From the NCBI GenBank assembly GCA_902537895.1, contig CACBCU010000008.1:1-45130 (forward strand): DNA of 45,130 nt. Direction: 5' to 3'. A program made the translations under genes and the position numbers. The stretch's first letter is position 1. The number at the start of each line of letters is the position of its first letter. The notes below the pieces were generated by a model. That model was given only the letters and a program-made list of their open reading frames with translations, made no database searches and was not told where the DNA came from. Source of the stretch: an uncultured Pelagibacteraceae bacterium (GTDB lineage Bacteria > Pseudomonadota > Alphaproteobacteria > Pelagibacterales > Pelagibacteraceae). Shown in pieces: positions 23,037 through 45,130 of the stretch.

Positions 23037-24221
23037 ATGCAAAAATTTACATCAGTTGAAAATTTAGTAAATCAGCTGAAACCAGACAAACCGGTCTATT
23101 GTATAAGAAAGAAATCAATTCTTTCTTCTTCTAAGTTTTTTCAAAAAAAATTTCCTGGAAAGGTTTTATATGCTGTTAAAACTAACCCTCATCCAGAGGT
23201 GATTAAAACTCTGGTAAAAAGCGGTATCAGTGAATTTGATGTCGCATCAATATCAGAAATTAAATCTGTTAGAAAATTTAGCCAGAGTGCTAAATGTTCC
23301 TTTATGCACACTGTCAAAAGTCGTGAGGACGTGCAAGAAGCTTATTTTAAATATGGTATTAAAACATTTGCATTAGATACTAAAGAGGAATTAATAAAAA
23401 TAATTGAGAGTACTAAAAATGCTAAAGATCTTGAAATTTTTGTAAGAGTTGCAGTATCAAATGAACACGCAGAGATAGACTTGTCAAAAAAATTTGGAGC
23501 CATGAACAATGAAGCTAGTGGATTATTAAGACTTGCAAAACATTATGCGAATAAAATTGGTTTGAGCTTCCATGTTGGATCACAATGTATGCATCCAATT
23601 TCTTATACAAAAGGAATAGCTGAGATAGGTAATATAATTAAGAAAACAAAAATTGTACCAGATTACATAAATGTTGGCGGAGGATTTCCAACTATATACC
23701 CAGATTTAGTTCCACAATCATTAGATAATTATTTTCAAGAAATAAAAATGAGTTTAGATAACTTAAAATTAAATAATTTACCTGAAATCATATGTGAACC
23801 AGGAAGAGCATTAGTCGCTGAAAGTGGATCGACAATTGTTAGAGTAAACTTAAGAAAAAAACAAAAACTTTATATTAATGATGGTACTTATGGTACTCTT
23901 TTTGATGCTGGGACACCAAATATAGTTTTCCCATCAAAACTAATTAAAGAAAGTTCTAATAAAATAATTTCTAAAAAGTTAACAGCTTTTGATTTTTATG
24001 GTCCAACTTGTGACAGTATGGATTACATGAAAGGTCCTTTTATTTTACCCAATAATATTAAAGAAAATGATTATATTGAGCTTGGTCAGCTTGGTGCATA
24101 TGGTCTTACATTTAGGACGGAATTTAATGGTTTCTTCTCAAATGAAATTTATGAAGTTGAAGATAATCCAATAATGAGTCTATATGGGAAAGACGCTAAT
24201 AAAGCCATATTAGTTGCTTAA
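23037..24221 (+). CDS. Ornithine decarboxylase, PLP fold III (eukaryotic/LysA-like type)
   Basis: The 394-residue enzyme makes putrescine from ornithine. The PLP-binding Lys48 is in VLYAVKTNPHP. FHVGSQC, the Gly-rich phosphate site VGGGFP, CEPGRALVAESG, and the substrate-site GPTCDSMD with catalytic Cys325 are all typical of group IV ODC. The Cys and the missing diaminopimelate-binding signature favour ODC or ornithine/lysine decarboxylase over LysA. AGGGGG lies 7 nt before the ATG. It is the first gene of a three-gene operon; its stop shares one base with the next start (TAATG). Confidence 0.9.
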   Translation: MQKFTSVENLVNQLKPDKPVYCIRKKSILSSSKFFQKKFPGKVLYAVKTNPHPEVIKTLVKSGISEFDVASISEIKSVRKFSQSAKCSFMHTVKSREDVQEAYFKYGIKTFALDTKEELIKIIESTKNAKDLEIFVRVAVSNEHAEIDLSKKFGAMNNEASGLLRLAKHYANKIGLSFHVGSQCMHPISYTKGIAEIGNIIKKTKIVPDYINVGGGFPTIYPDLVPQSLDNYFQEIKMSLDNLKLNNLPEIICEPGRALVAESGSTIVRVNLRKKQKLYINDGTYGTLFDAGTPNIVFPSKLIKESSNKIISKKLTAFDFYGPTCDSMDYMKGPFILPNNIKENDYIELGQLGAYGLTFRTEFNGFFSNEIYEVEDNPIMSLYGKDANKAILVA

Positions 24222-25264
24222 TGTCTGAAAAAAAAAATCTCGGCCATAATAGCAAAAAAGATTTTCTTAAAAACCCAGTTGAACATATAGATATTACCTC
24301 GTTTGACTCTAGGAAAATTATTTCTTCTATGAGAAAAATGTCTTTTGTTTCAAGAGAAACAGCAAATGCATCTGAGATATATAATGAGATGTTAAAAGAT
24401 AAGGATTGTACAATATTTCTAACCTTAGCTGGATCTACTTCTGCAGCTGGATGTATGCATATTTATCGAGATATGGTGAAGTATAATATGGTCGATGCAA
24501 TTGTAGCAACTGGTGCATCAATAATTGATATGGATTTTTTTGAGGCACTTGGATTTAAACATTATCAGGGTTCTCAGTACCAGAATGATAATGAATTAAG
24601 AAATAACTACATAGATAGAATTTACGATACTTACATTGATGAAGAGGAACTTCAGATGTGTGATAAAATAATAGGTGAAATAGCTGACAAGTTACAACCT
24701 AAAGCTTATACATCAAGAGAGTTTATAAAAGAAATTGGAAAATATTTAAAATCAAATGCAAAGAAGAAGGATTCTTTAATAGAAACAGCATATGATAATA
24801 ATGTTCCAATATTCTGTCCAGCATTTACAGACTCCAGTGCAGGTTTTGGTCTAGTAATGCATCAAGAAAGAAATCCAAATAATCACATCACAATAGACAC
24901 TATTAAAGAATTTAGAGAATTAACTGAAATAAAGATTAAATCTAAAGGTTCTGGATTGTTTATGATTGGTGGTGGAGTTCCAAAAAATTTTATTCAGGAT
25001 ACTGTTATATGTGCTGAACTTTTAGGTAAGAATGTAGATATGCATAAATATGCTGTGCAAATTACAGTTGCGGATTCAAGAGATGGCGCTTGTAGCAGCT
25101 CAACACTTAAAGAAGCAAGTTCATGGGGTAAAGTCGATACAACTAAAGAACAAATGGTTTTTGCTGAAGCAACATCTGTTTTACCTTTGATTGCAAGCGA
25201 TGCTTATCACACAGGTGATTGGAAAAATAGAGATAGAAAAAATTTCTCTAAAATATTCGGATAG
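24221..25264 (+). CDS. Deoxyhypusine synthase-like protein (probable polyamine aminobutyl transferase)
   Basis: The 347-residue protein is clearly of the DHS family: LAGSTSAAGCMHIYRDMV near residue 70, VATGASIIDMD, MIGGGVPKNFIQDT, the AVQITVADSRDGACSS region, and WGKVD containing the catalytic Lys304 (the enzyme-aminobutyl-imine Lys of DHS). Eukaryotic and archaeal DHS modifies eIF5A/aIF5A using spermidine and NAD. Bacteria lack that protein, so a small acceptor such as putrescine (giving homospermidine) is more likely; plant homospermidine synthases evolved from DHS in this way. It sits between ornithine decarboxylase and a ureohydrolase, which supports a polyamine role. The exact product is inferred. 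Confidence 0.85.
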   Translation: MSEKKNLGHNSKKDFLKNPVEHIDITSFDSRKIISSMRKMSFVSRETANASEIYNEMLKDKDCTIFLTLAGSTSAAGCMHIYRDMVKYNMVDAIVATGASIIDMDFFEALGFKHYQGSQYQNDNELRNNYIDRIYDTYIDEEELQMCDKIIGEIADKLQPKAYTSREFIKEIGKYLKSNAKKKDSLIETAYDNNVPIFCPAFTDSSAGFGLVMHQERNPNNHITIDTIKEFRELTEIKIKSKGSGLFMIGGGVPKNFIQDTVICAELLGKNVDMHKYAVQITVADSRDGACSSSTLKEASSWGKVDTTKEQMVFAEATSVLPLIASDAYHTGDWKNRDRKNFSKIFG

Positions 25265-25267
25265 AAA

Positions 25268-26143
25268 TTGAATTATTTGTCTAATAAAAAAGGTTTTTTA
25301 GGAATTGATAACAAATTTAGTATAAATGAAAAAGCTATAGTCATCCCGTTTGGGCTTGAAAAAACTGTTAGTTATGGGGGTGGCACAAAGGATGGGCCTA
25401 AAGAAATTATAAAAGCGTCTCATCAGGTGGAATTATATGATGAGGAATTTAATTGTGAACCATATAAGAAAATAGGAATCAAAACAATTAAACCGTTTAA
25501 AATTAATAAAAACATTAAAATTGCTTTAAATCAAATCTCTAAATTAAATGAGAGGATTTTAAGTAAAAAAAAATTTCCTTTAACACTTGGTGGTGAACAT
25601 TCGATAACTCCTGGTTGTATTAAACCTTTTGTGAAAAAATTTAACAAAATTTTAATACTTCATTTTGATGCACATGCAGATTTAAGAAACAGTTATAATA
25701 ATCAGAAGTTTTCTCATGCGTCTGCAATTAGAAGGTGTTTAGATTATAAAAACGTATCTTTAGTATCATTTGGTATAAGAAATATATCAAAAGAAGAAGT
25801 CCCATATCTAAAAAAAAATTCAAAGAGGATAAAAATTTTTTGGGCTAAAGATAAAAAAAAATGGAATTTAAAAAAATTCAAAAAAATAATTTCTAATAAA
25901 ATTGTCTATTTAACATTTGATGTTGATGGATTTGACTCAAGCCTAATGCCGGCAACTGGAACTCCTGAGCCAGGTGGTCTATTCTGGGATGAAACTTTAG
26001 AAATTATAAAAATTGCTGCAAAAAATTCAAATATTGTTGGAGCAGATATTAATGAGCTTGCACCAATTAAAGGGTTTAACTCTTACAATTTTTTAGTCGC
26101 AAAGTTAGCTTACAAAATTTTATCTTATAAATTCCTTACTTAA
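25268..26143 (+). CDS. speB: Agmatinase/arginase-family ureohydrolase
   Basis: The 291-residue binuclear-manganese hydrolase has all metal ligands: GGEHS, HFDAHADLR and TFDVDGFD, with ATGTPEPGGL following. In a polyamine operon the likely reaction is agmatine to putrescine plus urea, though guanidinobutyrase, arginase or formiminoglutamase activity cannot be excluded by eye. The start appears to be TTG at 25268, 3 bp after the DHS-like stop; there is no in-frame ATG until deep in the protein, and the conserved region begins too early for that. The 3' end abuts the facing yhhQ gene with no gap. Confidence 0.85.
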   Translation: MNYLSNKKGFLGIDNKFSINEKAIVIPFGLEKTVSYGGGTKDGPKEIIKASHQVELYDEEFNCEPYKKIGIKTIKPFKINKNIKIALNQISKLNERILSKKKFPLTLGGEHSITPGCIKPFVKKFNKILILHFDAHADLRNSYNNQKFSHASAIRRCLDYKNVSLVSFGIRNISKEEVPYLKKNSKRIKIFWAKDKKKWNLKKFKKIISNKIVYLTFDVDGFDSSLMPATGTPEPGGLFWDETLEIIKIAAKNSNIVGADINELAPIKGFNSYNFLVAKLAYKILSYKFLT

Positions 26144-35583: not shown

Positions 35584-36714
35584 ATGAATACAAGAGAAAA
35601 TATAAAAAAATTGATAATTGAAAAACCACTTAGGTTAGACTGTGGTAAAACTATTAGTAAATTTCCTCTGGCATACGAGACCTATGGCAAATTAAATGAA
35701 AATAAGGATAATGCAATTTTAGTCTTTCACGCATTAACAGGTGATCAGTTTGTAACAGGTGTAAATCCAATAACTAAAAAAGATGGATGGTGGTCTTATG
35801 CGGTAGGCCCAAAAAAATCAATCGATACAGATAAATATTTTATAATTTGTGCTAATGTGATTGGTGGTTGCATGGGGTCTTTTGGTCCAAGTCACGAAAA
35901 TCCTGAAACAAAAAAAATATATGGAACAGATTTTCCAGTTATTACGATCAATGATATGGTAAACGCCCAAGTAAATTTATTAGATTTTTTTAATATCAAA
36001 AAGCTTTTTTCTGTGGTTGGTGGATCAATGGGAGGGATGCAGGTCTTACAATTTGTGAGTAATTTTCCAGACAAAGCTAAAACAGCTGTCCCTATTGCTT
36101 GCACATCTAGCCATTCAGCCCAAAATATTGCATTCAATGAACTTGGTAGACAAGCAATAACTGCTGATCATAATTGGATGGATGGAAAATATAATTCTAA
36201 AAGCACTTTGCCAGATAAAGGGTTAGCTGTAGCAAGAATGGCTGCTCATATTACCTATTTATCTAAAAAGGGACTTCAAGAAAAATTTGGTAGGAATCTC
36301 CAAGAAAGAGATGATCTTAAATTTGGATTTGATGCTGATTTTCAAATAGAAAGCTATTTACGTTATCAAGGTTCAGTATTTGTAGATAGATTTGATGCTA
36401 ACAGTTACCTTTATATAACTAGAGCAATGGATTATTTTGATTTGGTTAAACAGTTTGACGGCAATCTATCAAACGCCTTCAAAAAAACCAAAACTAAATT
36501 TTTTATTATGTCTTTTACGTCAGATTGGCTTTATCCAACTCAAGAGAATAAAGATATAGTTATTGCGTTAAACGCAATTGGTGCGAATGTAGGTTTTGTT
36601 GAAATAGAGTCTGATAAAGGGCATGACTCCTTTTTGCTAGAAGTTCCAGATTTTTTAAATGCACTCAAAAATTTTTTAGATAAATCTTATATTGAAGGTA
36701 ATAATGAAAGCTGA
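35584..36714 (+). CDS. metX: Homoserine O-acetyltransferase (or succinyltransferase)
   Basis: The 376-residue alpha/beta-hydrolase-fold enzyme acylates homoserine as the first committed step to methionine. [25 protein letters not shown] is the N-terminal signature, the nucleophile Ser is in VGGSMGGMQ, and the Asp and His are in TSDWLYPT and KGHDSFLLE. MetX proteins can use acetyl- or succinyl-CoA, so the donor is not settled by eye. It has an 84-nt leader containing the SAM-II riboswitch, so expression should fall when SAM is abundant. It overlaps metW. Confidence 0.95.
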
Positions 36715-37303
36715 ATATAATTTTATTGCAAATATAATCGAAAAAAACTCAACTGTATTAGATGTTGGTTGTGATGATGGAACTTTGATGGAATTTTTGA
36801 GAAAAAACAAAAATGTAAATATAAGAGGAATTGAAATTTCTAAAGAAAAAGTTCAAATATGTATAGCTAAAGGATTGACAGTTATTGAAGGTAATGCAGA
36901 GCTTGATTTAAAGCAATTTCCGAAAAATTCTTTTGACTACGTTGTTTTGGGTCAGACACTGCAAGCTTTTATAAATCCAGAAATTGTCATTAAGGAACTT
37001 TTAAGAGTTGGCAAAAAAGCCATTGTGACTATTCCGAACTTTGGAAATTGGAAGGTAAGGTTAGACTTACTTTTTAAAGGAACTATGCCAATTACAAGTT
37101 CACTTCCTCATGAATGGTATAACACACCAAATATTCATATGTGTACTATTAAAGATTTTGTGAGATTTTCAGAAATTATTAATTTTAAAATTGTTAAATC
37201 TTTAGCTCTAATAAATAAAAATATCTCGAATATAAGTAAATCAAATATTTTTTTGAAAAATTTATTCGGAGAGCTTGGAATATTTTTGATTGAAAATAAA
37301 TGA
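36704..37303 (+). CDS. metW: Methionine biosynthesis protein MetW
   Basis: This protein of about 199 residues has the class I methyltransferase fold ([14 protein letters not shown] for SAM binding, [18 protein letters not shown], and the MetW-specific [20 protein letters not shown]). MetW partners MetX and is required for efficient homoserine acylation in several proteobacteria. I use ATG 36704, which overlaps metX by 11 bp and has GAAGG upstream, rather than the in-frame TTG at 36692. It ends in an ATGA overlap with gloB. Confidence 0.93.
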
Positions 37304-38019
37304 AAATAAAAATTATTAAATGTCTTCAAGATAATTACAGTTATGTAATAATTGATGAAAATAATCAATCTGCTTGTGTAGTTGACCCAAGCGAATCTAA
37401 GCCAATAATTGATTTTATAGATAACAATAAGATTGATCTAAAATACATTCTAAATACCCATCACCATCATGATCATATTGGTGGCAATCTTGAACTGAAA
37501 AAAAAATATAATTGTGATGTTATTGGATTTAAAGATGATAAGGAGCGAATTCCAGGAATTGATGTTCTTGTAGAAAGTAATCAAATTTGGCAAAAAGATA
37601 ACTTTGAAGCAAAAATTTACCATACACCGGGTCATACATCAGGTCATATTGCATTCCATTTTTTTAAAGAAAAAATAATTTTTACAGGTGATACTTTGTT
37701 TTCTTTAGGTTGTGGCAGGATCTTCGAGGGAACTTATGAGCAGATGTTTAACTCTTTAAAAATATTTAAAAAATTGCCTAAGGATACCCTGATTTATTGT
37801 GGTCATGAATATACACTAAAAAATTCTGAATTTTGTGTATTCAATGATCCAGACAATTTAAAGCTAAAAGAAAAAGTTTTAAAAATTAAGAATAATCTAA
37901 AAATTAATTCACCAACTATACCTTCTGTTTTAGATGAGGAATTAGAGTGTAATATATTTTTAAAAGCTGAGGATATTGAGACTTTTTCAAAACTGAGAGA
38001 TTTAAAGGATAATTTTTGA
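37300..38019 (+). CDS. gloB: Hydroxyacylglutathione hydrolase (glyoxalase II)
   Basis: The 239-residue metallo-beta-lactamase-fold enzyme hydrolyses S-lactoylglutathione to lactate and glutathione, completing methylglyoxal detoxification. The metal-binding signature THHHHDHIGG lies at about residues 52-61, followed by HTPGHTSGHIAFHF, FTGDTLFSLGCGRIFEG and YCGHEYTLKN, all diagnostic for GloB. It overlaps metW by 4 bp and is probably read from the metX promoter. Confidence 0.95.
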   Translation: MKIKIIKCLQDNYSYVIIDENNQSACVVDPSESKPIIDFIDNNKIDLKYILNTHHHHDHIGGNLELKKKYNCDVIGFKDDKERIPGIDVLVESNQIWQKDNFEAKIYHTPGHTSGHIAFHFFKEKIIFTGDTLFSLGCGRIFEGTYEQMFNSLKIFKKLPKDTLIYCGHEYTLKNSEFCVFNDPDNLKLKEKVLKIKNNLKINSPTIPSVLDEELECNIFLKAEDIETFSKLRDLKDNF

Positions 38020-38029
38020 TTTATTGAGC

Positions 38030-38057
38030 TTGACTAAAGTTTCGCTCAGATTATATT
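38030..38057 (+). promoter_or_regulatory. Candidate promoter of the rplU-rpmA-obgE operon
   Basis: TTGACT (38030-38035) and TATATT (38052-38057) are 16 nt apart. A start near 38064 would leave about 19 nt before the rplU ATG at 38083, with GAGA as a weak ribosome site. No L21 autoregulatory leader is apparent in so short a region. Confidence 0.6.
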
Positions 38058-38082
38058 GCGATTATTAAAAATTGAGATCCTT

Positions 38083-38484
38083 ATGTCTTATGCAGTAATA
38101 CAAACTGGTGGAAAACAATACAAAGTAGTGTCAGGTGAAATCCTAAAAATTGAGAAACTACCAAATTCAAAACCGGATACTAAAATAGAATTTAAAGAAA
38201 TTTTAGCTTACGGAAATGAAAAAGAGATCGAAATTGGATCTCCCATGGTGCAAGGTGCGAAAGTTGAAGCAAACTTGATAAAAAATAGCAAAAATAGAAC
38301 TATTTTAATTTTTAAAAAAAGACGAAGACAAAATTCAAGAAGAAAGAATGGCCATAGACAACAATATTCTATGATCAGAATAAATAAGATTTTTTCAAAA
38401 GATGGTAAGGTTTTATCTGAAGCTAAAGAGGTTTCTAAAGTGACAAAAAAATTAGCAAAGGATACAAAAGAAAATAAAAAGTAA
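38083..38484 (+). CDS. rplU: 50S ribosomal protein L21
   Basis: The 133-residue protein starts SYAVIQTGGKQYKV, the invariant L21 N-terminus. KKRRRQNSRRKNGHRQQYSMIRI forms the conserved rRNA-binding region near residue 75-97. It carries a Lys-rich C-terminal tail of about 30 residues beyond the ~103-residue core, as in other alphaproteobacteria. ATG 38083 is preferred over an in-frame TTG at 38056, which lies inside the promoter -10 box and adds non-conserved residues. rpmA follows 9 bp later. Confidence 0.96.
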   Translation: MSYAVIQTGGKQYKVVSGEILKIEKLPNSKPDTKIEFKEILAYGNEKEIEIGSPMVQGAKVEANLIKNSKNRTILIFKKRRRQNSRRKNGHRQQYSMIRINKIFSKDGKVLSEAKEVSKVTKKLAKDTKENKK

Positions 38485-38493
38485 GGTAGAGTT

Positions 38494-38748
38494 ATGGCAA
38501 CAAAAAAAGCAGGTGGATCATCAAGAAATGGACGTGACAGTGCTGGTAGAAGACTTGGTGTGAAAAAATATGGTGGAGAAACTGTGGTGCCAGGAAACAT
38601 AATCGTAAGACAAAGAGGAACAAAAATTTTTCCCGGTGAAAATGTTGGTATGGGTAAAGACCATTCAATTTTTTCTGTTATTAAGGGCAAAGTTGTTTTT
38701 AAAAAAACTAAATCAGATAGAACTTTTGTTTCTGTAAAACCCAATTAA
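38494..38748 (+). CDS. rpmA: 50S ribosomal protein L27
   Basis: The 84-residue protein has the usual N-terminal tail [21 protein letters not shown], which reaches the peptidyl-transferase centre, then [28 protein letters not shown]. No Firmicute-type cleavable pre-sequence is present. GGTAGAG precedes the ATG. It sits between rplU and obgE, the near-universal bacterial order. Confidence 0.97.
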
Positions 38749-38766
38749 TAGTACAACTTAAAATAG

Positions 38767-40851
<2,085 letters not shown>

Positions 40852-40855
<4 letters not shown>

Positions 40856-42105
40856 TAAAAAAAATTTTAACCAGTATTGGAAAAAAATCAAAAAGTGCCT
40901 TGGCACATCAGGTGGATACTAAAAAGAAAAATAAAGTATTAATAGACTACTGTTCACTTATTAGAAAAAATCAAAAATTAATCATTAGTGCTAATAAGAG
41001 AGATGTTAATAAATCAATAAATAAGGGGCTTAAAAAAAACTTGATTGAACGTCTTATTTTAAATGAAAAAAAAATAGATAATATTATTAGTTCAATAAAA
41101 TCTGTAATAAAACTTAAAGACCCAACAAATAGAGTTTTGGAGAAATGGAAGAGACCAAATGGGTTGCGTATTTCTAAGATCTCAATTCCTATAGGAATAA
41201 TTGCAGTCATTTATGAAAGTAGGCCAAATGTTACCTCGGACGTCGCATCATTATGCTTTAAATCCGGAAACCCAGTTATTTTGAGAGGTGGATCAGAGGC
41301 TTTTTTTTCAAATAAAATTTTGTCAAAGCTTTTTAGAGACTCATTAAAAAAAAATAATATTAATGAAAATTTTGTTCAATTTATTGACTCCACTAATAGA
41401 AATATTGTCGATTATCTATTAAGTAAAATGGATAAATATGTTGATGTAATTATTCCAAGAGGAGGAAAAAATTTAGTAAAAAAAGTTCAGAAGTTATCTA
41501 ACTTACCAGTGATTGGTCACTTGGAAGGAGTATGTCATACTTATGTTGATAAGAACGCAAACTTAAATACAGCAAAAAAGATTATTTTTAATGCAAAATT
41601 AAGGAATACAGCAATTTGCGGGGCTACAGAAACGATTTTAGTTCATCAAAAAATCTTGAGAAAATCATGTAACATAATTTTAAAACACTTAGAAGATCAT
41701 GGATGCAAAATTATCGGAGACAACAAAATCAAAAAAAATTATAAAGGGAAAATTATTAGGGCTACTAATAAAGATTGGTCAAAAGAATATTTGTCAGCAA
41801 CAGTTTCTGTAAAATGTGTCAGAGATATAAATGATGCAATCAATCATATTAATAAATATGGGACAATGCACACTGACTCGATTATCACCATGAACAAGAA
41901 ATCAGCAAAAAAATTTTTAAATAAAGTTAAAAGCTCAATCGCCATGCATAATACATCAACTCAATTTGCAGATGGTGGAGAATTTGGTTTTGGTGGCGAA
42001 GTTGGTATTTCAACTAACAAGCTTCCTCCGAGAGGCCCTGTTGGACTTAATCAACTAGTGTCTTATAAGTATCAAATATCAAGTAATGGGAGAATAAGGA
42101 AATAA
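40852..42105 (+). CDS. proA: Glutamate-5-semialdehyde dehydrogenase (gamma-glutamyl phosphate reductase)
   Basis: This 417-residue NADPH enzyme reduces glutamyl phosphate to the semialdehyde in proline synthesis. Aldehyde-dehydrogenase-fold signatures are IPIGIIAVIYESRPNVT, ILRGGSEAFFSN, IPRGGKNLV and the catalytic Cys in NTAICGATET. FADGGEFGFGGEVGISTNKLPPRGPVG is the conserved C-terminal block. It is tightly coupled to proB and leads into nadD with only a 1-bp gap. Confidence 0.96.
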
Positions 42106-42106
42106 T

Positions 42107-42625
42107 TTGAGATTCAAAAATAAAATTGGGGTTCTTGGTGGGTCGTTTGATCCTGCTCATATTGGTCATTTAGCAATATCAAAAGAAGCTGTAAAAGAAT
42201 ACAAGTTAAAAAAAATAATTTGGGCAATTACTTTAAAAAATCCTTTAAAGAAAAAAAATAATACAAGCATTTCTGAAAGAATCCAAAGTTGTAAAAAGAT
42301 CATAAAGTTAAATAAATTTATAAAAATAAAATTTTATGAAAAGATAATAAGATCTAATAAAACTATTGACTTAATAAACTTTCTAAAAAGAACTACCAAA
42401 GCTGAAATTTATTTTCTAATGGGGGCAGATAATCTCATTAATTTTCACAAGTGGTATAAGTGGGAAGCTATTTCAAAAAAATGTAAAATTATTGTTTTTG
42501 ATCGTCATGGCTATAAAAAAAAATCTTTAAATTCAGTCTCATATAAAAGATTAAATGGAAAAAGTTTAAAGTTTATTGAATTTAATAAAGTCAATATTTC
42601 ATCTTCTCAATTAAGGAAAATTTGA
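42107..42625 (+). CDS. nadD: Nicotinate-nucleotide adenylyltransferase, short form
   Basis: This 172-residue enzyme makes deamido-NAD from NaMN and ATP. The nucleotidyltransferase signature GGSFDPAHIGHLAI is near residues 11-24, and FLMGADNLINFHKW and ISSSQLRKI follow. The usual family length is ~190-220, and most members continue 20-30 residues past the ISSTxIR motif; this one stops two residues after it. The start is TTG at 42107 (AAGGA 6 nt upstream), since no ATG precedes the core motif. Next gene begins 17 bp later. Confidence 0.9.
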   Translation: MRFKNKIGVLGGSFDPAHIGHLAISKEAVKEYKLKKIIWAITLKNPLKKKNNTSISERIQSCKKIIKLNKFIKIKFYEKIIRSNKTIDLINFLKRTTKAEIYFLMGADNLINFHKWYKWEAISKKCKIIVFDRHGYKKKSLNSVSYKRLNGKSLKFIEFNKVNISSSQLRKI

Positions 42626-42642
42626 TAAGGTAAATATAATTA

Positions 42643-42981
42643 ATGGATAAAATCTTAAGCTTAAAAAAAATTATCATTGAAACTCTCGACATAAATAAAG
42701 CTCAAGACATTGTAAGTATAGACTTAAAGGATAAAAGTTCTATAGCTGATTATATGATTATAGCTAGTGGTACTTCTTCTAGGCATATACAGCCTTTCTT
42801 TGTTGCTGAGGTATTTACAGGATCTCCTGGAAAACTCGTAGATCTTGAGTCCACAATAAAAGGTTTTGATGCAATCTGTAAAGGTGAGTACGATCATCTT
42901 CCAGAGGCTGCGTTTTATATGGTTGGTACTATTGAAGAAGCCATGGAAAAAGCTGAAAAAATGAAAAAAGATGCCGCTTAA
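42643..42981 (+). CDS. Chimeric ORF: RsfS N-terminal half joined in frame to the AtpD C-terminus
   Basis: The 112-residue ORF is two unrelated parts. Residues 1-50 are the start of ribosomal silencing factor RsfS ([41 protein letters not shown]), in its normal place after nadD. Residues 51-112 are the C-terminus of the F1 ATP synthase beta subunit ([31 protein letters not shown], then a coiled helix), followed correctly by atpC. RsfS lacks its second half (the IVHIF...ELEKMW region), and beta lacks its whole catalytic body. The missing RsfS tail is found on the other strand at 44986-45130. This is a rearrangement product, not a natural fusion family. Confidence 0.9.
42788..42793. other. Rearrangement junction between rsfS and atpD
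   Basis: The codon CAG (42790-42792, Gln50) is the likely crossover. RsfS homologues often have Gln after SSRHI, and beta subunits have Gln before PFFVAEVF, so a short shared CAG could have joined the two sequences. The exact breakpoint within a few bases is not resolvable without the intact parental genes. Confidence 0.7.
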
Positions 42982-43373
42982 TGACCGAAAATTTTAAACT
43001 TGAAGTAGTAAATCCAGAAAAATCTTTTCTTTCAAAAGAAGATGTCACTGAAGTGGTGGTACCAGCATTTGAGGGAGAGATGGGAATACTTAAGGATCAT
43101 GTATCGATAATTTCATTTTTGAAACCTGGTATAATCAAAATTTATTCAAAATTAGGTGAAGAAAAATATTATGTTGAGGATGGAATAATCGAATTTAAGA
43201 ATAATAATCTATCAATTCTTACTAGCTCTATTTTTAACATTAAAGATATAGAAAAAAGCAAAATAGATGAAATGTTGAGAGTTGCTGAAGAAGAGACAGC
43301 TAAGGACAACATTAGTGATCAAGCAAAATACTTAATTGATCAGAAAATTGAAGTTTTAAGAACTATTAATTAA
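42981..43373 (+). CDS. atpC: F1F0 ATP synthase epsilon subunit
   Basis: The 130-residue protein has the N-terminal beta-sandwich (FKLEVVNPEKSFLS, VVVPAFEGEMGILKDHVSII, LKPGIIKI) and a short helical C-terminus. Epsilon links the catalytic hexamer to the rotor and can inhibit ATP hydrolysis. The start shares one base with the stop of the atpD tail (TAATG), the normal atpD-atpC coupling. Its promoter and the rest of the atp operon are not in the window because of the rearrangement. Its 3' end overlaps rppH by 8 bp. Confidence 0.93.
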   Translation: MTENFKLEVVNPEKSFLSKEDVTEVVVPAFEGEMGILKDHVSIISFLKPGIIKIYSKLGEEKYYVEDGIIEFKNNNLSILTSSIFNIKDIEKSKIDEMLRVAEEETAKDNISDQAKYLIDQKIEVLRTIN

Positions 43374-43851
43374 TAATCTTTTCTAATTTTTTTTGAAGAA
43401 TCTTGTAAACATTAAGCTTGAAGTTAACAACTATCTCCGTAATAGAATTTAGTTCTATCCACTTCCATTCGAAAAATTCTGGTTTGCTTGTATTAATATT
43501 AATTTCATCATCACTACCAAGATGTCTCATCAAAAACCATTTTTGTTTTTGTCCTTTAAATTTACCTTTCCAAATTTTACCTAGAAGATGGTTTGGTAGT
43601 TCATAAGTGGTTATTTCATCTATTTCAGTTATTAACTCTACATTTTTAATACTGGTTTCTTCCTCTAGTTCTCTGTAGGCAGCAGATAAATAATCTTCAC
43701 CTTCATCAACACCTCCTTGTGGCATTTGCCAAAAACCTTTTGGGTTATCAATTCTTTTTGCTACAAAAATTTTATTTTCTTTATTTAAGACAATTATACC
43801 AACACCTACTCTGTAAGGTAGATTTCTATATTTTTCCTGAATTTCAACCAT
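43366..43851 (-). CDS. rppH: RNA pyrophosphohydrolase (Nudix)
   Basis: The 161-residue Nudix hydrolase begins YRVGVGIIVLNKENKIFVAKR and has a complete Nudix box, GGVDEGEDYLSAAYRELEEETSI, at about residues 42-64; QMPQGG just before it is the RppH/IalA signature. The enzyme removes pyrophosphate from 5' ends of mRNA to trigger decay, or hydrolyses diadenosine polyphosphates. It overlaps the ctpA stop by 8 bp, so both are co-transcribed on the minus strand. Confidence 0.93.
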   Translation of the reverse strand: MVEIQEKYRNLPYRVGVGIIVLNKENKIFVAKRIDNPKGFWQMPQGGVDEGEDYLSAAYRELEEETSIKNVELITEIDEITTYELPNHLLGKIWKGKFKGQKQKWFLMRHLGSDDEININTSKPEFFEWKWIELNSITEIVVNFKLNVYKILQKKLEKIIN

Positions 43852-44989
43852 TAAGTAATTTAATTGCGTAATTCAATTGATTATCGGTTTCAGTTTTAAT
43901 TTTAAAATCATCACTTTCCTCATCTATTTCAATGTCAGGTGACACACCTACTTCGGAAATAGATTTGCCTGAAGGTAAATAATACTTAGCTACAGTTAAT
44001 CTTATAGCTCCTTTATTTTTTAGAGGAATAATAGATTGAACAGATCCTTTTCCATAACTATTTTCACCAATTAAAATTGCTCTTTTATGATCTTTTAGAG
44101 CTCCAGCTACAATTTCAGAAGCAGAGGCAGAACCGTAATTTATTAAAACAAGAATAGTTTTTCCTTTTGTCAGATCTCCTTTTTTTGCAAACCATTTTCG
44201 ATTTTCTGATTGTTGCCTACTTTTTGTAGAGACAATCTCACCATTATCCAAAAAAAAATCAGAAATTTTTATAGCTTGTGATAATAGTCCACCTGGATTA
44301 TTTCTTAGGTCTAAAATGTAAGACTTTAAATCTTTATTTTTTTCAAATTTATTGATTTCTTTTTTTATTTGCCCGGCACTATTTTCATTAAAGGAAGTTA
44401 ATCGTATATACCCAATGTTTTTTTCAAGTAATTCTGCTTTGACCGATTTGATTTGAATTATTTCTCTTGTGACATTAAAAGTTAAAGCTTTTTTCTCTCC
44501 TCGTCTTCTTATTGTTAATTCAATAGAGGAACCTACGGGCCCTCTCATTAACTCGACTGCCTCACTCAAAGATTTACCTTGTACTTGGGTGTCATTAATT
44601 TTAACTATATAATCTCCAGCTTTTATTCCTGCTTTGGATGCGGGTGTATCATCTATTGGAGAAATAACTTTTACAACTCCTGATTCCATTGTAACTTCAA
44701 TACCAAGCCCCCCAAATTCACCACTTGTCTCAGTTTGCATTTCGTTAAAAATTTCTGGAGACATGTAGCCTGAATATGGATCTAAAGATTGAAGCAAACC
44801 GTTAATAGCTGAATCCATACTGTCAGATTGATTAATTTCATCAACATATTCCTTATTAATTTTTTCTAAAACCTCGCCGAAAACATCTATTTTTTCGTAT
44901 ATTTCGTTTTCAGAAGAAATTACTTTTTGATTAAATAAAAATAAAATTAAAATAAAAGTTAAAAAGTTTAGTATAGCTTTTTTTTTCAT
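43844..44989 (-). CDS. ctpA: C-terminal processing protease, S41 family
   Basis: The 381-residue periplasmic serine protease has a signal peptide (residues ~1-25), an N-terminal helical region, a PDZ domain (~90-170, GGLGIEVTMESGVVKVISPIDDTPASKAGI) and the S41 catalytic core. The Ser/Lys dyad lies in NYGSASASEIVAGAL and GENSYGKGSVQ. YILDLRNNPGGLL is also conserved. CtpA proteases trim the C-termini of envelope proteins and help control peptidoglycan hydrolases. Its ATG overlaps the stop of the rsfS fragment (ATGA), preserving the ancestral rsfS-ctpA-rppH coupling. Confidence 0.95.
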   Translation of the reverse strand: MKKKAILNFLTFILILFLFNQKVISSENEIYEKIDVFGEVLEKINKEYVDEINQSDSMDSAINGLLQSLDPYSGYMSPEIFNEMQTETSGEFGGLGIEVTMESGVVKVISPIDDTPASKAGIKAGDYIVKINDTQVQGKSLSEAVELMRGPVGSSIELTIRRRGEKKALTFNVTREIIQIKSVKAELLEKNIGYIRLTSFNENSAGQIKKEINKFEKNKDLKSYILDLRNNPGGLLSQAIKISDFFLDNGEIVSTKSRQQSENRKWFAKKGDLTKGKTILVLINYGSASASEIVAGALKDHKRAILIGENSYGKGSVQSIIPLKNKGAIRLTVAKYYLPSGKSISEVGVSPDIEIDEESDDFKIKTETDNQLNYAIKLLNG

Positions 44990-45130
44990 ATAATTAATTT
45001 TTCTTTGGGTATCAGCTCAGACCACATCTTTTCAAGTTCATAAAAACTTCTTTTTTCTGGGTGAAAAATATGTACTATAAGATCAATACCATCTACCAGT
45101 TTCCATTCATTGCTATCTTTACCTTCAATT
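44986..45130 (-). CDS. rsfS: C-terminal fragment of ribosomal silencing factor RsfS (5' part beyond window)
   Basis: Reading the minus strand from 45129 gives 47 codons to a TGA at 44986-44988. The product contains IEGKDSNEWKLVDGIDLIV and HIFHPEKRSFYELEKMW, matching the RsfS C-terminus (E. coli: VEGENSADW...VIVHV...LYELEKLW). It has no start in the window. About 20 residues between this and the N-terminal half at 42643-42792 are unaccounted for. Its opposite orientation to that half shows that the intervening block is inverted. RsfS binds L14 and blocks subunit joining in starvation. Confidence 0.88.
   Translation of the reverse strand, partial: IEGKDSNEWKLVDGIDLIVHIFHPEKRSFYELEKMWSELIPKEKLII

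Follow-up and report, generated by a model that had tools for sequence, protein, structure and literature searches.

A Hybrid RsfS–AtpD Reading Frame in a Pelagibacteraceae Draft Genome Is Very Probably an Inverted Amplification Chimera

Introduction

An open reading frame that begins as RsfS and ends as the ATP synthase beta subunit AtpD raises the question of whether two genes have been fused in a living cell or whether the join arose between the cell and the assembly. The frame lies in the window analyzed here, which is the entire contig C8 (45,130 nt) of a Pelagibacteraceae draft genome (G000; 1,001,108 nt in 40 contigs, rated 84% complete). The original prediction, made from the letters alone, read the frame as an artefactual chimera. 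This reading is supported by the present analysis, in which the two halves match their families separately, the two genes are separate in relatives, and no whole-frame match is found elsewhere. The hybrid frame joins RsfS and AtpD pieces but is not a gene fusion, and in all likelihood it does not represent a genuine biological feature.

The Hybrid Frame and Its Two Halves

The frame spans positions 42643–42981 of the plus strand and encodes 112 amino acids, as the original prediction described. The prediction assigned residues 1–50 to RsfS and residues 51–112 to AtpD, and separate profile searches of the two halves matched both. The N-terminal 50 codons of rsfS occupy 42643–42792 (plus strand), with a nadD homologue directly to the left. 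ORF residues 10–50 match positions 2–43 of 98 of the Pfam RsfS profile PF02410 (E = 2.1e-10), and residues 8–50 match positions 2–44 of TIGR00090. The C-terminal 62 codons of atpD, together with the stop codon, follow at 42793–42981 (plus strand). When scanned alone, the last 62 residues match positions 406–462 of 462 of TIGR01039 (E = 1.3e-23), and a Pfam search with this piece returned no family at E ≤ 0.001; AtpD positions 406–462 fall outside the nucleotide-binding domain. The AtpD end is 93.5–98.4% identical to its counterpart in 80/80 named loci of relatives (the best 80 of 542 candidates).

Neither half amounts to a full-length protein. The ORF lacks a full-length RsfS domain, scoring 44.1 bits against a TIGR00090 cut-off of 56.9, and it lacks both the full length and the nucleotide-binding domain of AtpD, scoring 89.5 bits against a TIGR01039 cut-off of 462.85. 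The expectation that a gene caller would label the frame simply as RsfS or AtpD therefore stands in part: Pfam would call it RsfS (41.1 bits against a threshold of 21.6), whereas the NCBIfam models for both atpD and rsfS stay below their cut-offs.

The Normal Locus in Relatives

Regarding the usual arrangement, a search for rsfS and atpD in 60 relatives and G000 gave matches in 51 of the 60 relatives, 48 of which matched with both genes. Intact genes in close relatives had been proposed as a check on the prediction, and rsfS and atpD are indeed separate there. In 47 of these 48 relatives, the two genes lie on one contig and on opposite strands, with a gap of 2.2–2.7 kb between the matched stretches; in the sole exception (G056), they lie on two contigs. 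Among the named loci (best 80 of 542 candidates), the order atpD on the plus strand followed by rsfS on the minus strand is seen in 74 of 80, and in the remaining six (L051, L054, L060, L085, L089 and L116), the contigs end before rsfS.

Alignment with G036, a close relative, divides the contig into two blocks. Window positions 35685–42797 align in reverse orientation at 95.9% identity and positions 42789–45130 in forward orientation at 94.8%, and both are neighboring parts of one continuous G036 locus. The same two-block, opposite-orientation pattern is found in L118–L121 at 74–79% identity. Over the block, L044 scores slightly higher than G036. The genes between atpD and rsfS were aligned in G036, L118–L121 and the six best loci. 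Back to base 1, the remaining contig is collinear with G036 except for one gene replacement, so that the contig contains a single orientation break relative to G036, at 42789–42793.

As a side observation on the collinear part, window positions 25268–26143 hold a gene that scores above the TIGR01230 cut-off for agmatinase, and the G036 counterpart (L125, 9643–11572) holds agmatine deiminase-like and N-carbamoylputrescine amidase-like genes, which score below the NCBIfam cut-offs. The flanks of the two regions are 95–96% identical, and the difference is an apparent swap of two agmatine-to-putrescine routes. The swapped genes adjoin a deoxyhypusine-synthase-like gene (24221–25264), which scores above the NF002699 threshold for 1,9-bis(guanidino)-5-aza-nonane synthase.

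The Flipped Block and the Contig End

A search of G000 for RsfS found two places, both on the same contig. The first is the plus-strand stretch 42670–42792 (profile positions 2–43), and the second is the minus-strand stretch 45022–45129 (profile positions 63–98), at the contig end. The scanned part of this C-terminal piece covers 45019–45129 of the minus strand (PF02410, E = 1.8e-12); the contig end truncates this piece, whose last codons are located below 45019. The bulk of the remaining RsfS is thus not lost, as its second piece is present 2.3 kb away in the opposite orientation. In all 74 named loci that reach rsfS, the two RsfS pieces are 57 nt apart.

Between the two pieces, atpC for the F1 epsilon subunit (42981–43373, plus strand; PF02823, and TIGR01216 over its cut-off) directly follows the AtpD end, which is its usual place. 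It is followed on the minus strand by a NUDIX hydrolase gene (43366–43851; PF00293), which we take to be rppH-like, and by a gene for an S41 peptidase with a PDZ domain (43844–44989; PF03572 and PDZ families), presumably ctpA-like. The atpD end, atpC, the NUDIX gene, the ctpA-like gene and the C-terminal rsfS piece together form a block of about 2.3 kb (42793–45130) that is flipped as a whole relative to the rest of the contig, judging from the opposite-orientation alignments with G036 and L118–L121. To the left of the ORF lie homologues of nadD, proA, proB and obgE according to their profile families, with the gene names in part our assumption. The contig stops 56 nt before it reaches the second breakpoint, at which the N-terminal rsfS piece would be rejoined by the flipped block. 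The remainder of RsfS on the minus strand at the contig end and the atpC gene after the AtpD end had both escaped the original prediction; with the former on the opposite strand and the latter in place, the event is an inversion at the level of a segment, not a local gene fusion.

The Junction

The chimeric junction (42789–42793) was placed by the alignments and by base tallies over 75 loci of relatives, namely 74 named loci and G036. It falls at the CAG codon 42790–42792, in agreement with the predicted position of the join. The window reads ATA CAG and then CCT, which corresponds to rsfS through CAG and to atpD from the next base. In the relatives, the base after this codon in rsfS is T in 45/75 loci and G in 30/75, and the base after it in atpD is C in 75/75, as it is in the window. 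Judged from the relatives, the run shared by the two genes and ending at this codon is 0 nt in 28/75 loci, 3 nt in 39/75 and 4 nt in 8/75; the CAG, which the original prediction placed probably in both parents, may thus have been present in both. Any microhomology at the join is therefore short and its length is not fixable, since the relatives give 0, 3 or 4 nt and the assembly does not contain rsfS and atpD of the strain itself in uninterrupted form. In G036, 2,395 nt separate the two breakpoints.

Genes Missing from the Assembly

Profile and sequence searches of G000 found no further, complete copy of rsfS or atpD, and neither the N-terminal part of G036 atpD nor the missing rsfS stretch had a match in the assembly. 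The single ATP-synt_ab match lies on contig C19 inside a 422-aa ORF; this ORF reads as Rho from its sequence, and the match was rejected as a second atpD. Upstream of atpD, G036 carries priA, an OSCP-type delta gene, and genes with PF00006 and PF00231, which are taken as atpA and atpG. Missing from the G000 assembly are most of atpD, atpA and atpG. When this 7.1-kb upstream G036 stretch was compared with G000, one strong match was obtained, to bases 1–288 of contig C23 (L127), along with three weak ones of 34–71 nt. The C23 match takes in the start of priA plus the 43 preceding bases, with the end of C23 located inside priA; beyond 288 nt, C23 departs from G036. C23 runs away from the atp genes, and its orientation fits the G036 order over the 288 nt matched. 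A hole of 6,023 nt (G036 coordinates) therefore lies between C23 and the flipped block. Given the 84% completeness of the genome, this is in line with a dropout of amplification next to a chimera.

Origin of the Join

The reading that we consider very probable is an inverted chimera formed in vitro during whole-genome amplification (multiple displacement amplification (MDA), probably of a single cell) and carried into the assembly. It is supported by the presence of two RsfS pieces in opposite orientation on one contig, the second of which is cut by the contig end. During MDA, a growing 3′ end inside rsfS would leave its template and re-prime about 2.4 kb away, on a strand of opposite sense within atpD. 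Copying would then run through the atpD end, atpC, the NUDIX gene, the ctpA-like gene and rsfS toward its own start, and the assembler would follow the chimeric molecule and stop near the fold-back onto sequence already used. The order of genes found in the window is the one given by the model of Lasken and Stockwell 2007 (PMC1855051), as set out in the available part of that paper, in which branch migration displaces a 3′ end, and this end then primes anew on a displaced strand close by. Amplification as the maker of the join, the single-cell source and the stopping of the assembler are what we infer; the two pieces, the inversion, the contig end beside the fold-back point and the separate genes of relatives are directly observed. 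Among the named loci (best 80 of 542), 78/80 carry AG-, AH- or SAG- isolate names, which we take to be single-cell style, and many titles say MAG; by analogy with these names, G000 may also be of single-cell origin.

An attempt to predict the contig end from an assembly k-mer size and contig-end trimming was not successful. One single-cell pipeline trims 100 nt off each contig end, according to the portion of PMC5519541 available, and the untrimmed end would then lie 44 nt past the breakpoint, which corresponds to no expected k-mer size. As this estimate borrows a pipeline that may not be the one used for G000, it counts neither way; the accessible pipeline descriptions in PMC10224968 and PMC6122165 contain no mention of contig-end trimming.

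A functional RsfS–AtpD fusion protein can practically be dismissed. The frame is open through 112 codons, yet the RsfS part breaks off at profile position 43 of 98, the AtpD part covers only 406–462 of 462, and the flipped block accounts for both ends at once. The original prediction held that the same fusion in independently sequenced relatives would make it real. In a search with the whole ORF against 399 genomes of the genus (G000 included), 341 had some match; among the matches listed, ordered by E-value, none of the 398 other genomes showed the whole ORF, and the best score from another genome was 137.8 bits against 231.3. The join was likewise found in none of the 60 relatives, a set that overlaps the 398. 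A literature search for such a fusion in Pelagibacter listed a single paper, a review on synthetic cells. The absence of a second genome with the join agrees with the artefact reading, and a real domain fusion was rejected on this ground. Most likely, the frame stays open at the join by accident, and no fusion protein is made.

Misassembly by scaffolding or k-mer overlap, with no physical chimeric molecule behind it, is highly improbable. It would suit a contig end that adjoins the fold-back point, but the 0–4 nt shared at the join, as estimated from relatives, are far below usual assembly k-mers, which are 21 or more, and the window contains no N, so that reads probably spanned the join. The little shared sequence and the lack of N make a physical chimeric molecule likely. 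The same shared run, too short for a k-mer overlap error alone, is compatible with a 2.3-kb inversion that truly took place in the sequenced cell and broke rsfS and atpD through microhomology-mediated repair or a replication error, as the joined molecule probably existed. This explanation is very unlikely, and an inversion of this kind in a living SAR11-like lineage or a dying cell, with both rsfS and the gene for F1 beta disrupted by a microhomology inversion of 2.3 kb, is a shade less probable again. A real inversion would destroy the only rsfS and atpD seen in an 84%-complete assembly, and F1 ATP synthase cannot do without atpD. The contig end 56 nt before the second junction would also have to be chance, and the chance of a contig end in a given 100-nt stretch is estimated at ~0.8% (40 contigs in 1.0 Mb). 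The lack of a whole-ORF match in the other genomes of the genus, among the matches listed, speaks against it as well. Inverted repeats at 42400–45130 numbered 26, and none of the 25 listed has arms at both the junction and the contig end, so that recombination between repeats is not suggested; as a cause, they were rejected for 25 of 26 pairs, a partial test since the upstream atpD side lies outside the window.

Returning to the amplification chimera, its relevance is one of quality control only: a species-representative draft genome carries a false hybrid gene, which could mislead surveys of gene fusion or gene loss. That G000 has no whole rsfS or atpD probably reflects chimerism and dropout, not loss. 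The signature can be screened for, as one gene in two opposite-orientation pieces on one contig, with one piece cut by the contig end.

Comparison with Known Systems

Within each of its two blocks, the window has the gene order of the Pelagibacteraceae atpD–atpC–NUDIX–ctpA–rsfS–nadD locus, as in G036, at about 95–96% DNA identity. It differs from this locus in that one block is flipped and in that the contig lacks 56 nt of rsfS and the remainder of atpD. The other system for comparison is the MDA chimera. According to the available part of PMC1855051, 406 of 475 chimeras from single-cell MDA were inversions, 337 of these 406 joined segments less than 10 kb apart, and complementary bases were present at the join in 93.5% of the inversions under 10 kb. 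In the window, the second segment is likewise inverted and less than 10 kb away (2,395 nt in G036). Compared with the complementarity of 2–21 nt in MDA chimeras, the join shares 0, 3 or 4 nt, as read from relatives standing in for the strain itself. A true shared run of 0 nt would place the join among the rarer ones in the accessible data of PMC1855051. The window thus resembles the inverted chimeras described in that part of the paper in joining segments of the same neighborhood, inverted and about 2.4 kb apart, with a shared sequence that, as judged from relatives, is short or absent, and it differs from them in that its chimera survives in an assembled contig and leaves an open frame, with amplification the presumed maker here.
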